Below are positions 1,536 to 61,056 of a stretch of 64,000 nucleotides of DNA, piece after piece; the stretch's first letter is position 1, and the number at the start of each line of letters is the position of its first letter. Both the position numbers and the translations under genes were made by a program. Source of the stretch: an uncultured Lachnospiraceae bacterium (GTDB taxonomy: Bacteria > Bacillota > Clostridia > Lachnospirales > Lachnospiraceae); assembly GCA_947626715.1 (NCBI GenBank), contig CANQTG010000001.1, positions 1-64,000 on the forward strand, written 5' to 3'. The notes under the pieces were generated by a model. That model ran no database searches. It had not been told where the DNA came from and saw only the letters and a list, made by a program, of their open reading frames with translations.

Positions 1536-2381
1536 CTAGTTCGTATGCGTATAAAAATCTTCCCGGCCGGGATCCGTCAGGGATTCATATTCCGCTTTCT
1601 TTTCCTGCGCAAACTCCGCCCGGTCAAAGATATAGATATCGTAATTGTCGGCCGTCGTCAGATAACTGAACTCATACTCGTCGATCGGCTTAGTCCCTAC
1701 GATCGGCGTCCCGGTGCGCAGGACGATGTATTCCACGCCCTGCTGCTTGGCATAGTCCGTGACCGCAAAGGAGCGGACGGGGCTCGCCTCCATCGCTTCG
1801 TACAGAGGATTGTTATTCCAGCCCTGCACAAGCGCATCCCGCCCGTAGGCGAGCAGGATACTGGCGTCATACTGACGGATAAACTGCAGCAGCTCGGCCG
1901 GCACGACCGCTTTTACATCCCGTCCTTCCACATGCATGACGTCTGCGACGGAGAGGACGGCCTCCGGCAGATGATAGGGATTCTCGGCCTTCGTGACCAT
2001 CGGATTCTTATAGATCAGGCTCCCGCCGCGTACGAGCAGCAACGCGATCAAAAGCCCCGCTAACAGCCGCCGCCTTCCCGTCTCGATCATGCTCAGGATC
2101 CTCGCGCCCGCATACGCCGTGACCAGCCCCATCGGGACCAGCCAGAGGATACGGTAATAGACGCCCGGTTCCAGAAACACGCGCATGGCCACATACGCGA
2201 ACAGCGGAAAGAAAAACAGGGCGAGCGCGGCGGCGGTCAGATATACGAGCGTCAGCCGGATCTCTTTTTTCTCTTCCGTCAGCCACAGATACAGGAGCGC
2301 CGCCAGCACGAACACCGTCGTCATACTGCCGCCGCCATAGTCTTTATAGACCGTCAGGATCGTTTCCAACAGGCCGCCCAT
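1536..2381 (-). CDS. DUF6077-like membrane protein, C-terminal half (split gene)
   Basis: 281 residues from an ATG at 2381 with an AAAGGAGG site; a longer open frame upstream only reads antisense-like junk over the neighbouring gene. The first 120 residues are hydrophobic (about four membrane segments), followed by a soluble domain of about 150 residues. In order and character it matches the C-terminal half of the intact 626-residue protein at 53584-55464: an RILWLVPMG-type membrane segment corresponds to RLFWCIPIL there, and AVVPAELLQFIRQYDASI corresponds to VIAPEDLGHYLRQYSSNI. The N-terminal half is the preceding gene. Either a frameshift split one gene, or this lineage carries it as two coupled genes. 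Family label DUF6077 is from memory. Confidence 0.6.
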   Translation of the reverse strand: MGGLLETILTVYKDYGGGSMTTVFVLAALLYLWLTEEKKEIRLTLVYLTAAALALFFFPLFAYVAMRVFLEPGVYYRILWLVPMGLVTAYAGARILSMIETGRRRLLAGLLIALLLVRGGSLIYKNPMVTKAENPYHLPEAVLSVADVMHVEGRDVKAVVPAELLQFIRQYDASILLAYGRDALVQGWNNNPLYEAMEASPVRSFAVTDYAKQQGVEYIVLRTGTPIVGTKPIDEYEFSYLTTADNYDIYIFDRAEFAQEKKAEYESLTDPGREDFYTHTN

Positions 2382-2410
2382 GTCCCGCCTCCTTTCTCTT
2401 CCCTTTGGCG

Positions 2411-3454
2411 TCACTTTAAGAACAGATACAAAAGCCCATAAAAAACGCTTGGCATAAGACAGGCCCCTATCTGAAAAACGAGCGCCGCCCTTTTTTGGGA
2501 TACCGCCACGATCAGCGCCGCAAGAAAAAGCAGGATCGGGACGGTAAAGATCCCCGTACTCGTCGTAAAGACCGTATCCGTCACAAGAATGAACAGCAGC
2601 CCCCACTCCCCCGCGTCCATTTCCTCTTTTGCGATAAAGATGAGCCACAAAAACAGAGCCGGGATCATCAGATTCGGAAACATCGCCTTGCCCTGCCAAG
2701 TCCGCGTATAGGCAAAGCTCTCCGGCGTATAGATCGACACGTTCCCAAACAGATACCACAGATTTAAGAGCAACAGGAACACCCATTGATTCTTTCTCTG
2801 CATTGGAAAGAGCTGCTTCCCGAGCTGCCCATAAATACAGTACATCAAAAACAAAAACAGGATGCTGATATAACTATGGCACAGTATTGTCACATGGATC
2901 CCGCAGATATCCGAAAGCCATGCCAGAAAGACGGGCGCCGTGGACAGGGCGTGGCGGATATCCAGCTCCCCGTCCGCCCCGTAATAGGGCGTATAGCGGT
3001 ACATCGTATCCGTATGCTGGCTCGTGAGCGAAGCCGCCACATAAAAGGAATCGTCGCCGTCCAAATACTGCATGTGGAACGCAAAAAACATCTGAAGCAC
3101 GATCAGTCCTATCACGAGCAGCATGAGCGGAAGCTGCCCCTTTTCCGGCGCGGATCCCCTCGCCTTTTCCATACACGGCCCGATACAGCCATGCCCGATC
3201 AGCAGGGATAGCAGCGCCAGAGCGGCGATTCCGATCGTATAGCTATGGACAAGCGCATGATACGACGCCTGCGCGGCGATAAACGGCACCGCCATGACCT
3301 GAAACGCCGCAAACATCATAAACCAGCCCGCCAGCCAGACCATTCCCAGCGACTGATGTTCTTTTTTCATAAAGCGCACCGGCGCCAGTCCCAAGCACAG
3401 GGGCAGAAGCCATGTGCAAAGCGCCAGCAGCCCCAGCTGCAAACCCGCCGCCAT
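2411..3454 (-). CDS. DUF6077-like membrane protein, N-terminal half (split gene)
   Basis: 347 residues with about nine membrane segments; ATG at 3454 preceded by AGAGGTAAG. An acidic YLDGDDSFYVA loop near residue 130 corresponds to YRGNTDDSYYLTKA in the intact homologue at 53584-55464; acidic first-loop motifs of this kind are usual in GT-C type transferases, so a membrane glycosyl- or modification transferase is likely but unproven. The frame ends with TGA at 2411, in a loop between two membrane segments, 30 bases before the ATG of the second half, which is in another frame. It follows directly (no gap) after the SGNH gene. Confidence 0.6.
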   Translation of the reverse strand: MAAGLQLGLLALCTWLLPLCLGLAPVRFMKKEHQSLGMVWLAGWFMMFAAFQVMAVPFIAAQASYHALVHSYTIGIAALALLSLLIGHGCIGPCMEKARGSAPEKGQLPLMLLVIGLIVLQMFFAFHMQYLDGDDSFYVAASLTSQHTDTMYRYTPYYGADGELDIRHALSTAPVFLAWLSDICGIHVTILCHSYISILFLFLMYCIYGQLGKQLFPMQRKNQWVFLLLLNLWYLFGNVSIYTPESFAYTRTWQGKAMFPNLMIPALFLWLIFIAKEEMDAGEWGLLFILVTDTVFTTSTGIFTVPILLFLAALIVAVSQKRAALVFQIGACLMPSVFYGLLYLFLK

Positions 3455-32868: not shown

Positions 32869-34797
32869 TCAGGATATCCTATCAACACTTTCAGCCCATA
32901 AGATTGCATAATCAGCGTTTTCTCCATAATTCCATATACACCGATAAATATCAGTTCCATATTCTATACAGGTTCCGATCTCCATATCGCCTGTGTGAAC
33001 AGCTAAAATACACTCCGGTTGCCAGAAAATATTTTTATCGGATAATACAATCGGATGTATCGTCGTATTTTCATTTTTTAATGCAACCCACAAAGGATAT
33101 TCGTAAGTGTCTCCGCCTAACAGCAGACCAATATTTTTTGCTCCCATTTTTTCTGCAGTCGCTGTCAATTCTCGATAAGGTTCTGTTTCCTCCTGACGGT
33201 TCAAAAAATAAAGATCAAATCTCGCTTCTCCGTCCCATACCGCCTGCGCATATGAATCCGCCTGCATTTTTATAGTCCTAATCCCATCTGGGAGCATTAA
33301 CAATAAAACGATACTCATGACTAATATATTCATATAACGGTACTCTTTTTCTGCATTTATTGTATAGCCGATAAAAATACATATCAAAGGCAAAATTGGC
33401 ATCAACAATCTGGTACCCCATGGCTGCCATCTAATACAGAAAAGCATCGTCCCTGTTGAACATAATAAACTGCATATATATGTTAAATTTATTACTTCCT
33501 TCCTCTTCTTTTTTTTAATGAGAGAATATAACAAATGCAATATTGCAAATATACAAACAATCCCTGATATTAGGAACAAGGTTCGTGCCCCTGCTGTATC
33601 ATGATGATACGATTTTACGGCGCCTCTTCCCTCAGAATAACCATAATACGCAGATATTTCCAAGTCCTCTATATCAACCTGCAAATAATCCGCCAATTTA
33701 ACGGTCATCTGCCAGAAAGCGTCTGGCTGTTCTTCCCCTGCGATCTCCAGCGTCAAATTCTTACAGCCATTCAATAATAAATACCTCGGAGATATTGTTT
33801 TAACCATCAGATTCCCCGCCACCTGTTCAAGCGCCAAAATGTTCCCGGTACTCTTATAATTTCTAACAAAACTGGGAAACGCCAGTAAAATAATAATGCC
33901 CGCTGCCAGTACAACTGATTTGAAAATAGTCATAACAGATTCCTGTTTTTTCAAACATACAAGCAACAGCCATAATAACAATAAAGGCACCATAAAACAG
34001 ATGCTGCTTTTCGTTAGATATCCAAATCCAATGCTGCATGCACAAAACACTATATTATGCATATTTTCTGACGAACATAAAGGCAAAGGAGACTTCCCTA
34101 TTTTTAATATAAACCATGCAATCATCAGCAAGTACATAGTTGCTAGTAAATCGACCTGCGTCGTCATACTTTCTGCGATCGCTAATGGACACAACATAAA
34201 TAACAGAGCCGAAAAAAGCGCTCCTCGCTTATCTGTTCCTAATTTTATACTAATTTTATAAGTCATCACCGCAGATAATACATAAGCGAGCCATTGTACT
34301 ATATTAACTAGCTTATCGCTTTTTAAAAGCAAGCATAGATGCAATATAATATATTCTGTAAAATTTGAATAATACAACTGGCGCAGAATACTGGTGGAAT
34401 AATAAGCTACCGATCTGTTTTGTATCCAATTTGCAACTCTAGCCATATGATATGTCATGGAATCCCAATTATTGGGAACGATCGTATACGATAATATAAA
34501 CATTATCAAAGCTAACAATAAGATCAATACCGACAATAAGCGTTCAAACCATTGCCCCCCCCTCCACACATCTTCTTTCAATTTATCTTTCGCATATATC
34601 CATGCGCTGCCTTTTCCACTTTTCATTCTCTTTAACATAAGGAGCACACTTAAAAGGCCGAAAATAATCCAAATTGTCCTTATAGCCGTATAAGTAAGGA
34701 ACTGCATAGCGCTCAATATTTCCGTTGAAAACCAGATTATCATTGAAAAGCAAATAATAATCTCAGGAAAACTCTCTCTCTGCTTCTCTCTATCCAT
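32869..34797 (-). CDS. GT39-like membrane glycosyltransferase carrying a G8 tract
   Basis: 642 residues, about twelve membrane segments and an outer C-terminal domain. The loop NNWDSMTYHMARVANW (about 119-134) is the acidic catalytic region seen in protein-mannosyltransferase/ArnT-type GT-C enzymes. Near residues 78-81 the codons for Arg-Gly-Gly contain eight consecutive G (34555-34562 as C on the plus strand), striking in AT-rich DNA; as sequenced the frame is open. Slippage there would truncate the protein before the catalytic loop. GGAG lies 11 bases before the ATG. Confidence 0.82.
   Translation of the reverse strand: MDREKQRESFPEIIICFSMIIWFSTEILSAMQFLTYTAIRTIWIIFGLLSVLLMLKRMKSGKGSAWIYAKDKLKEDVWRGGQWFERLLSVLILLLALIMFILSYTIVPNNWDSMTYHMARVANWIQNRSVAYYSTSILRQLYYSNFTEYIILHLCLLLKSDKLVNIVQWLAYVLSAVMTYKISIKLGTDKRGALFSALLFMLCPLAIAESMTTQVDLLATMYLLMIAWFILKIGKSPLPLCSSENMHNIVFCACSIGFGYLTKSSICFMVPLLLLWLLLVCLKKQESVMTIFKSVVLAAGIIILLAFPSFVRNYKSTGNILALEQVAGNLMVKTISPRYLLLNGCKNLTLEIAGEEQPDAFWQMTVKLADYLQVDIEDLEISAYYGYSEGRGAVKSYHHDTAGARTLFLISGIVCIFAILHLLYSLIKKKKRKEVINLTYICSLLCSTGTMLFCIRWQPWGTRLLMPILPLICIFIGYTINAEKEYRYMNILVMSIVLLLMLPDGIRTIKMQADSYAQAVWDGEARFDLYFLNRQEETEPYRELTATAEKMGAKNIGLLLGGDTYEYPLWVALKNENTTIHPIVLSDKNIFWQPECILAVHTGDMEIGTCIEYGTDIYRCIWNYGENADYAILWAESVDRIS
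34555..34562 (-). repeat. Homopolymer tract, eight G in coding strand
   Basis: Run of eight C on the plus strand inside an otherwise AT-rich gene. In frame as sequenced (phase ON). Potential slipped-strand mispairing site. Confidence 0.55.
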
Positions 34798-36629: not shown

Positions 36630-37582
36630 TTATACTCGTTCGCTTTCTTCTTTACAGATAAGCAATCTCTTTTTTCCATATCTGGCGGCAAAAAATGAAA
36701 AAACGCTTGTATAAGAGCCTAATATATATTCGCAGCGAGATAAACATAAACAATCGACAATTCCCGATTTCATCTCACCGCTTTCCTCTCTTCCCCATTC
36801 CTTATCCTGTTGTACTTTTAACCTGTTTCCATATATATTCTTTAATTTTTTCTCTTCAGATATGTCATCTGTCGCAAGAAAGAACCGTGCTTCTTTCTGT
36901 CCCTCTATGATTTCATCTATTTTTTTAATAAACGCATTTGTATTGCTTACTTTAGCAGCTCTTTGATGATCGGTTCTTCTTATATGGATACCGATAACTT
37001 TCTCTCCCGGAATAATTATCTTTTCTGCTCTCTCCAGATATTCTTTTCTAAACTTAATAACGCCATAATCAATATTTTCCTGTCCTTTGTCCTTGACTAT
37101 CCCACAAAATGCATGAATATAAATTTCTCTATCTCCCATGAGCCTTTTACGTATATTATTCCATGTATTGGACATATGTTCATAATATTTATCACTAAGC
37201 TCTTCCACATTCTTTGCTGGGAAATAACTGAAATAATTCTCTCTAAATACCATTTGAGATAATTTTTCGCATAATCTGCTTTTAAATAACGCTGTAAGGA
37301 ATCTGACGGCTCCTATAAGATGAATGCGCTTAATATTTGACCAAAATCCACCATACTTATCATAATTAAGATACTTCAGGTCTATTTCGATAACTTTTAT
37401 CTCAATATCAGCGAATATATCAGCGGCAAAGACTTCCCGAAAACTTATACCGCAATCTTTATCCACCGGCCAGACGATCACAAGCTTTTCCTTCTCCCCC
37501 CCCTCATTGATTTCACTAAATGATATGCATGAGCCAATGTAACGCATCTGCTCATCAAGCCGCTATAAACCTGTATATACAT
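36630..37582 (-). CDS. Fucosyltransferase-like protein, frameshifted at a G8 tract
   Basis: Two frames make up one gene. From ATG 37582 (site AGAGGATGAGG) the product begins MYIQVYSGLMSRCVTLAHAYHL, a normal N-terminus for this family (YSGLxxR glycine loop), but stops soon after the G tract at 37496-37503. The rest, starting LVIVWPVDKDCG, is in another frame to 36630 and contains IGIHIRRTDH, the HxRR fucose-donor motif of GT-B fucosyltransferases. One added G would give an uninterrupted protein of 317 residues. The downstream frame alone (from ATG 37547) lacks the donor-fold start. Probably a phase-variable gene caught OFF, or a sequencing slip. Confidence 0.75.
37496..37503 (-). repeat. Homopolymer tract, eight G, at the frameshift
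   Basis: Eight C on the plus strand. It lies at codons 27-29 of the fucosyltransferase-like gene, exactly where the reading frame changes. Nine G would restore the frame. Confidence 0.7.
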
Positions 37583-37639
37583 TTCCTCATCCTCTTACTT
37601 AACATCCTGAATCGTATTCCGTCAATCCGCCTAAAGAGA

Positions 37640-41499: not shown

Positions 41500-42747
41500 T
41501 TATATTGCATACAACACCGTTTCAGACAAATAATTGCTATAGTGTCTAATATATAATTTATATTCTGGCACTAATGTTTTTATATAATATGGTATCTCCC
41601 ATAAATCTTCTTTTTTATGATAAATACAAATAGCAAGTTTAGGCTTGTCTTTCAACAAAATATGTTTTGCTCCTTTTAATGCTCCTAGTTCAGAGCCCTC
41701 AATATCCATTTTAATGAATGTCACTTTTTCCTTAATATATGAGTCAAGTGCGATTACCTTTACTTTTTCTGAAGCTATATCGAATTGCTTTGAAGGATCT
41801 CCAACCGCTCCTAATATTCCTAACTCCGAAAAGTGAGAGGAAGAATTTCCCAAAGGAGAAAATTCCAAGTATTCGTTATCACTCCACAAGCCATACGGCA
41901 ATAATTCAATCTTATCTACTGCCAGATTACTTATTTTTTCTTTACATTTTTCAACATTTGCCTTATCAGGTTCAAAAGCATAGATCTTTTTATATTCTAG
42001 GCCCAACTCAGCCATTTTCTTAATAAATAACTCTCCTGTAGAAAAATCAAAGCAGCCTCCGTCAACAAATACCTCATCTTCTCCAAAATCCATTATTTTA
42101 TCAAAATACTGTTTCTCAAACGACTCTTTAAGAAAATAATAATCGTAATATTTATATATATCCTCCTCATGTATGCCTTTTTCTACTAACAAGCTAAATA
42201 TCTCTTCACAGACACCTTTATGCATAGGGCTAATAATAATAACATGGTTATTCATAAGCTTCTGCTCTAATAGCTCATCCAATGAAATGACAGATATTCC
42301 ATCTATTTTTGTATGCAGTTTCTCCGCACTACTGTCGCAAAATCGGCTGACTCTTACTCTCCCCCCCTCTTTCGGAAGGGACTGATCATTTAATCCAAGT
42401 CCAAACACGCAGCAGAATTCTCTACACAGTCCCCTTTGCTTGATCAATTTGACCATCTCTACATAATTCGGATGAAGGAGAGGTTCTCCATAACCATATA
42501 AATTGATAACTTTGATCCGCTCTGGAAATTCTTCCAAATCATCCAAGATCTTAAGGAATAATTCCATAGACATTTTTTCATGTCTTTCCTTTATCATAAA
42601 ATCGCTATTATTGCATGGACAAAATTTACAGGCAAAATTACACGCTCCACACGGATCTAAAAACAAGACAAAGGGGGCTTCTAAAGGTACCGCTTCTTCC
42701 AGCTTGGTCCTTGCATTACTATATTCTAATCGATCTCTATTGAGCAT
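41500..42747 (-). CDS. Chimera: truncated radical SAM domain joined to FkbM methyltransferase
   Basis: 415 residues. Residues 1-110 are the start of a radical SAM protein: C36-x3-C40-x2-C43 for the iron-sulfur cluster and GYGEP (85-89) for SAM binding. After GLCRE the radical SAM barrel stops and a Rossmann-like FGLG segment, FCDSS and VISLDELLE follow (115-160), the usual N-terminal module of FkbM proteins. Residues about 215-415 are the FkbM domain (VFVDGGCFDFSTGELF, YAFEPD, FIKMDIEGSE). Only half a radical SAM barrel remains, so that activity is doubtful; sugar O-methylation by FkbM is plausible. A G7 tract encodes residues 127-129. Confidence 0.75.
   Translation of the reverse strand: MLNRDRLEYSNARTKLEEAVPLEAPFVLFLDPCGACNFACKFCPCNNSDFMIKERHEKMSMELFLKILDDLEEFPERIKVINLYGYGEPLLHPNYVEMVKLIKQRGLCREFCCVFGLGLNDQSLPKEGGRVRVSRFCDSSAEKLHTKIDGISVISLDELLEQKLMNNHVIIISPMHKGVCEEIFSLLVEKGIHEEDIYKYYDYYFLKESFEKQYFDKIMDFGEDEVFVDGGCFDFSTGELFIKKMAELGLEYKKIYAFEPDKANVEKCKEKISNLAVDKIELLPYGLWSDNEYLEFSPLGNSSSHFSELGILGAVGDPSKQFDIASEKVKVIALDSYIKEKVTFIKMDIEGSELGALKGAKHILLKDKPKLAICIYHKKEDLWEIPYYIKTLVPEYKLYIRHYSNYLSETVLYAI
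42361..42367 (-). repeat. Homopolymer tract, seven G in coding strand
   Basis: Seven C on the plus strand within the FkbM N-terminal module, in frame as sequenced. Third poly-G tract in 8 kb of mostly AT-rich coding DNA. Confidence 0.4.
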
Positions 42748-60193: not shown

Positions 60194-61039
60194 TTACATT
60201 CTTATCCAATTCCCACATTTAATATCTGGACATTCAGCCATATTTTGCCACTGTTTAGGTGCTATTACTATTTTCCGGGGATTTTGATTCAACCATGAAG
60301 CCCACCAGCTAAAACTACTATTGGCAATAATATTATGCTTACAATTTGCCATTAATTTCATATCATGAATGCTGCTCACTGCATCTCCTAACTCTACAAA
60401 AAATACATTTTCAAAAGCCCCCATAAATTGTTTGCTCCATTTCATATCATCGGAAAATACATAGTATTGGGGATTTTCCATCCTTTTCTCTATATAGTGA
60501 ATCGCATTCTGATAATACTCTTTTGTACATATACCCCCATATTTGCTTATATTTTCTAAATAATCTCCTCTTCGAATATGGACGCTGACAGAATCACCCT
60601 CCCTAATTCTATGTAAAATATCATCTTCTTCACGCGTCACAGATTCTGGAAAGGTAAAATCTTCCAATAATTCACCTCTAATATCTATGAAATACTTCTC
60701 GCTTTGCCAATAACCCTCTAATAATGCACACCTTTTATTAAACACCTCCGACAGATATACGCTTGGGACATGTTCTATATATAATAATTCATTAAATCCT
60801 ATATGCTTTTCAAGCCATCTAATCAATGAATTGTCTCTTAATTTTTTTTCTAATTCAGAACACGTCCGCAACTTTATTGGGAAATACTTTAACTCCAATT
60901 TACGAGATTCATTCACATTTTCATCAAAAAATCTCCAAATATCTACTTTAACTTTAGGATAACGTTTCTGCAATTTACGGTACAATGCATACTGAAACAT
61001 TTGATTTCCCAATCCACCATATATTTTTACTATAGGCAT
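60194..61039 (-). CDS. Family 11 alpha-1,2-fucosyltransferase
   Basis: 281 residues from ATG 61039 (AAAGGAG nine bases upstream). GGLGNQMFQYALYR (8-21), VHIRRGDY (153-160), YYVFSDD and the C-terminal ANSSFSWWASWL are the family 11 motifs; HxRRxD contacts GDP-fucose. These enzymes make Fuc-alpha-1,2-Gal, the H determinant. GDP-fucose would derive from GDP-mannose (manC at 28332), but gmd and fcl are not in the window. Followed by a GT2 gene 25 bases away. Confidence 0.92.
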   Translation of the reverse strand: MPIVKIYGGLGNQMFQYALYRKLQKRYPKVKVDIWRFFDENVNESRKLELKYFPIKLRTCSELEKKLRDNSLIRWLEKHIGFNELLYIEHVPSVYLSEVFNKRCALLEGYWQSEKYFIDIRGELLEDFTFPESVTREEDDILHRIREGDSVSVHIRRGDYLENISKYGGICTKEYYQNAIHYIEKRMENPQYYVFSDDMKWSKQFMGAFENVFFVELGDAVSSIHDMKLMANCKHNIIANSSFSWWASWLNQNPRKIVIAPKQWQNMAECPDIKCGNWIRM

Positions 61040-61056
61040 CCACAATATCTCCTTTG

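Follow-up and report, generated by a model that had tools for sequence, protein, structure and literature searches.

A fucosyltransferase-like gene on the minus strand of the 64,000-nucleotide stretch analyzed here (the window) is divided between two reading frames at a run of eight G. We assign a probability of roughly 0.8 to the reading that this gene is a phase-variable locus, currently OFF, within a Lachnospiraceae phasome. As in a contingency locus, a homopolymer lies within the reading frame, its length decides in silico whether the full protein is encoded, such tracts are in excess in the genome, and the rest of the gene is intact. The data behind this reading come from one assembly per species; the genome that contains the window is a draft in 162 contigs, estimated at 95% complete.

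The split gene and its product

The locus comprises the following features:

36630–37582, minus strand: fucosyltransferase-like gene (NodZ/FUT8-type), split and OFF as assembled, with two frames meeting at G8

37591–37596, minus strand: probable Shine-Dalgarno sequence AAGAGG, 8 nt 5′ of the ATG, read from the sequence

37504–37582, minus strand: 5′ coding part (MYIQVYSGLMSRCVTLAHAYHLVKSM), the N-terminal glycine-loop segment, which aligns with residues 1–26 of homologues

37496–37503, minus strand: G8 tract, the proposed switch, within a short insertion absent from 24 homologues

36630–37495, minus strand: 3′ coding part (P0001), which contains the HIRRTDH motif; Pfam O-FucT match under the curated threshold (E = 3e-5); family profile against PDB NodZ, E = 2.6e-8

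Eight C on the plus strand at 37496–37503 read as G8 on the coding minus strand. The 5′ frame starts at ATG 37582 (MYIQVYSGLMSRCVTLAHAYHLVKSM...) and stops 5 codons beyond the tract, and the 3′ frame (GEKEKLVIVW...HIRRTDH..., P0001, 289 aa) is open between the tract and a stop at 36630. Both parts fall into one frame if the tract has 9, 6, or 12 G; the joined 9-G reading is 317 aa, and no other stop or frame break was found across the 317 codons. The ORF listing starts the 3′ ORF at ATG 37547, but the gene almost certainly does not begin there. The original prediction was thus borne out on two frames that meet at the G8 tract, on nine G restoring a 317-residue protein, and on a proper ribosome site and start, for which AAGAGG 8 nt ahead of ATG 37582 is plausible. 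It had also described poly-G at the start of the gene; the tract does lie within the 5′ portion, but 27 codons in and not at the very start.

The gene product is predicted to be a NodZ/FUT8-type fucosyltransferase-like enzyme, in agreement with the earlier assignment. Its Pfam O-FucT match scores 24.2 bits against a curated cut-off of 31.5 and so does not reach the curated score, which sets it apart from the NodZ/FUT8/POFUT superfamily. The likeness to that superfamily lies in the HxRRxD motif, the N-terminal glycine loop, and a profile match: a profile built from seven family members matched PDB NodZ (2hhc) over most of its length, followed by FUT8 and POFUT2. The alignment (A1) shows no variation at the HxRRxD residues (H199, R201, R202, and D204) or at residues G8, L9, and R12 of the N-terminal loop.

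Comparison with homologues, which had been proposed as a check, found both parts in one continuous protein in all 24 aligned homologues from family genomes. The tract-bearing loop is three residues longer in the window protein than in these 24, the window row of the alignment being the joined reading minus one glycine codon (equivalent to six G); the tract therefore sits in a lineage-specific insertion. The closest homologue (L107, 41% identity), from another genus, has an in-frame G8 of its own elsewhere in the gene, and a scan of genome contigs found no close homologues of the joined protein.

A gene that is out of frame could also be a fixed pseudogene, lost through a one-base slip and now decaying, and a poly-G run is a natural site for a first lesion. 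A second lesion is absent from all 317 codons, however, and HIRRTDH and the other invariant family residues are retained. Furthermore, frame breaks at G tracts affect 16 genes across two species (listed below), which random decay would not yield. We therefore regard a fixed pseudogene as very unlikely.

The neighboring gene encodes a PglK-like ABC transporter (flippase), and genes for a NeuB-like synthase and a KdsC/GmhA fusion are part of the surrounding cluster; this gene content is consistent with a locus for a cell-surface glycan. The structure affected by the fucosyltransferase-like gene is presumably at the cell surface. A second tract lies in the same region:

34555–34562, minus strand: second G8 tract, at residue 78 of a gene for a PMT_2-type membrane glycosyltransferase, which it leaves in frame (ON)

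32869–34797, minus strand: PMT_2/ArnT-like glycosyltransferase with the second tract (Pfam PF13231, E = 2.6e-9)

In the 32–64 kb part of the window, two runs of at least eight C were seen compared with 0.37 expected (P about 0.05), and G7 counts across the whole window were not above shuffles. The two window tracts alone are only marginally above chance from local composition, so the case rests on genome-wide data.

Several further observations were made in the window. GC content falls from approximately 54% to 28–43% at about 32 kb (1–32000 compared with 32001–64000), and the tract-bearing glycan cluster is in the low-GC half. At 41500–42747, a radical SAM N terminus is in frame with an FkbM methyltransferase and contains a G7 run at 42361–42367; this looks like a fusion. 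A membrane protein gene at 1536–3454 is apparently in two overlapping frames near 2411–2786, with a junction that lacks poly-G. A second fucosyltransferase-like ORF at 60194–61045 is intact, carries a GLGNQMFQ motif, and is GT11-like by eye with no NCBIfam match.

Excess of G8 tracts across the genome

Genome-wide run counts were obtained from pattern searches and retrieved sequence stretches. Runs of exactly 6, 7, and 8 G numbered 86, 23, and 49 in the genome under study and 99, 14, and 34 in a complete congener genome (G007). Summed over 13 other Lachnospiraceae (G010–G022), the same counts decayed smoothly (2003, 197, and 26). Relative to these 13 genomes, the odds for the G8/G7 ratio were about 16 in our genome (P about 1e-19) and about 18 in the congener (P about 3e-16). 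Among 397 family genomes, most of which have 0–3 runs of exactly G8, our genome ranked third, below only G341 (107) and G192 (88). Two genomes from the same order, G063 and G076, contained 182 and 509 overlapping G8-mers, respectively. Longer runs were also present, with eight tracts of G9 and two of G10 in our assembly; the longest tract was G10 here and G11 in the congener. Tracts were clustered in the congener genome, with 21 neighboring pairs within 15 kb compared with 8.1 in simulation (maximum 18 in 10,000 runs).

Loss of mutS was considered as a cause of the G8 excess and rejected because the gene is present in our genome; a match was found in all 82 genomes searched, 77 of them above the family cut-off.

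The tracts are concentrated in glycan loci, and most tract genes that could be assigned to a family encode proteins that decorate glycans: methyltransferases (FkbM, TylF, and others), acyltransferases (MBOAT and Acyl_transf_3), a pyruvyltransferase, radical SAM proteins, RgpF, and PMT_2. Non-glycan tract genes are few (histidine kinase, AraC regulator, PTS, solute-binding protein, and ROK), and none is broken. For the PTS gene, 17 relatives encode the same two glycines by interrupted codons; judged from these sequences its G8 is incidental, so not every G8 in the genome is a switch.

Frame breaks and promoter spacers

Automated counting of runs of at least eight G inside ORFs gave 14 in frame and 5 broken in our genome and 9 in frame and 10 broken in the congener. 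For A/T runs of at least eight in the same loci, the counts were 31 and 0, and 10 and 1, respectively. Pooled, the in-frame and broken G runs (23/15) differed from the A/T runs (41/1) with P = 3e-5. Two loci, L026 and L086, look like adjacent genes and were removed by eye after the automated counts were known, which gave 23/13 and P = 1.5e-4. Inspection by eye also led to the exclusion of other apparent breaks, taken to be pairs of neighboring genes or a spurious frame upstream (L005, L046, L047:12080, L052, and L058, in addition to L026 and L086), but only L026 and L086 had been in the automated count. The automated thresholds also missed some broken genes, and a hand-curated list contains 16 genes that are frame-broken at a G tract:

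Our genome (6): window 37496, L007, L041:3417, L044, L047:7321, L053:3837

Congener G007 (10): L082, L096:2261, L096:8365, L097:2497, L097:7447, L097:13201, L102:3279, L102:15233, L104:5368, L104:6395

The curation was done by eye once the counts were known; the test of frame breaks therefore draws on the automated figures.

Indel errors are most common in homopolymers. In a draft of 162 contigs a miscounted G is possible, in which case the tract would really have nine G and the gene would be ON and intact. Against such an error, the same assembly gives eight G9 tracts and two G10, the frame is broken in either direction (+1 restores it at G8, −1 at G9), A/T runs of at least eight are almost never broken (41 intact, 1 broken), and the same pattern is found in the independent complete genome of the congener. 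An assembly or sequencing error is thus unlikely, and even if nine G were true, the tract would likely be a switch caught in the ON state.

All ten G8-OFF genes on the curated list need +1 and are joined at 9 (P = 0.002 under equal odds), and all five G9-OFF genes need −1 and are joined at 8 (P = 0.06 under equal odds), both P values depending on the hand curation; the one G10-OFF gene is joined at 8 or 11. The uniform shift of the G8-OFF genes would also suit programmed recoding, in which slippage of the ribosome or of RNA polymerase at the G run yields some full-length protein from the 8-G gene with the DNA unchanged: a −1 ribosomal frameshift or one extra G in the RNA would supply it. The five G9-OFF genes, however, require a shift in the other direction, many genes are in frame at G8 and need none, and tract positions differ between homologues, which makes recoding highly improbable. 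The break directions match alternation between 8 and 9 G, as expected, and not a single recoding signal.

A second group of tracts lies outside ORFs. In the two genomes, 6 of 49 such tracts are situated between a TTGACA-like box and a −10 box with a spacing of 15–18 bases; the shuffle mean was 0.39, and six were reached in none of 1,000 shuffles. These are the G8–G9 tracts at L013, L051, L055, L056, L060, and L083. In addition, a G10 lies in the sigmaD-like promoter spacer of one of the two flagellin genes (L061, G000:C140, 1101–1110; L224); by eye, this spacer is one base longer than the one in the tract-free promoter of the paralogous gene (L209). From the spacer sequences, the flagellin G10 is a possible transcriptional switch.

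These data support, indirectly but strongly, the phase-variation design first proposed for the fucosyltransferase-like gene, through the genome-wide G8 excess, the clustering of tracts, and the breaks at tracts. In the mechanism that we propose, the enzyme would decorate the cell-surface glycan made by the surrounding cluster, and the tract would occupy a loop, tolerant of change, that follows the first helix. During replication, slipped-strand mispairing would add or remove one G, such that 9 G would give the single 317-aa enzyme (ON) and 8 G, as assembled, would end translation at the stop past the tract (OFF). The gene would belong to a genome-wide set of switches that mostly alternate 8 with 9 G and lie in genes for transferases acting on glycans (methyl-, acyl-, glycosyl-, and, by motif, sulfotransferases), with a second class of tracts acting from promoter spacers. 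We infer slippage in living cells, its reversibility, the substrate of the enzyme, and an effect at the surface. The switching rate may be low, given the presence of MutS and a tract length, G8, that is short by the standard of hypermutable tracts.

Relation to known phase-variable systems

The best-known cases of phase variation through repeat slippage are in Gram-negative pathogens of mucosal surfaces. For Campylobacter, a review describes poly-G phase-variable surface-glycan genes (PMC8355987). The resemblance to that account extends to intragenic and intergenic G tracts, genes for glycan modification, and switching of frame or promoter by tract length, a mechanism that we infer for the genomes studied here; the differences are that our genomes are from Gram-positive Lachnospiraceae, the tracts are mostly G8–G9, mutS is present, and the switching is predicted from sequence. 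A sortase-pilus switch in Bifidobacterium breve, for which tract variation was measured by deep sequencing (PMC9187656), also belongs to a gut Gram-positive commensal and has a G run that joins two ORFs only at certain lengths. It differs in that it concerns pilin genes with G11/G12 in an actinobacterium, whereas the tracts described here are shorter and affect glycan enzymes at many loci. Among 99 genomes surveyed in another study, only nine showed over-representation of poly(G) runs of 7 and/or 8 (PMC2831843).

In class Clostridia, phase variation is described in Clostridioides difficile, where it proceeds via invertible promoters and therefore by site-specific recombination, not repeat slippage (PMC11868660). 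The literature searched, a scope with few subscription journals and no bioRxiv preprints, contained no poly-G phase variation in Clostridia. The expectation of few clostridial examples therefore held: the invertible promoters of C. difficile were the only ones found. As far as these searches show, the mechanism is of a known kind, and what is new is the taxon together with the extent of the repertoire; a multi-locus poly-G repertoire in Lachnospiraceae contrasts with the DNA inversion described in the Clostridia literature that was found.

We consider it likely that several Lachnospiraceae lineages, including this uncultured genus, run a Campylobacter-like phasome of short, mostly 8–9 G tracts. 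Through the reading frame it would control dozens of enzymes that decorate glycans, and through spacer length some promoters, among them that of one of two flagellin genes, to give combinatorial surface variation in gut commensals. If this is true, surface sugars, and perhaps flagellin, would be diversified from cell to cell in common commensals of a family that is dominant in the gut. Such diversity would be relevant to phage resistance, to recognition by the immune system, and to differences between gut strains.
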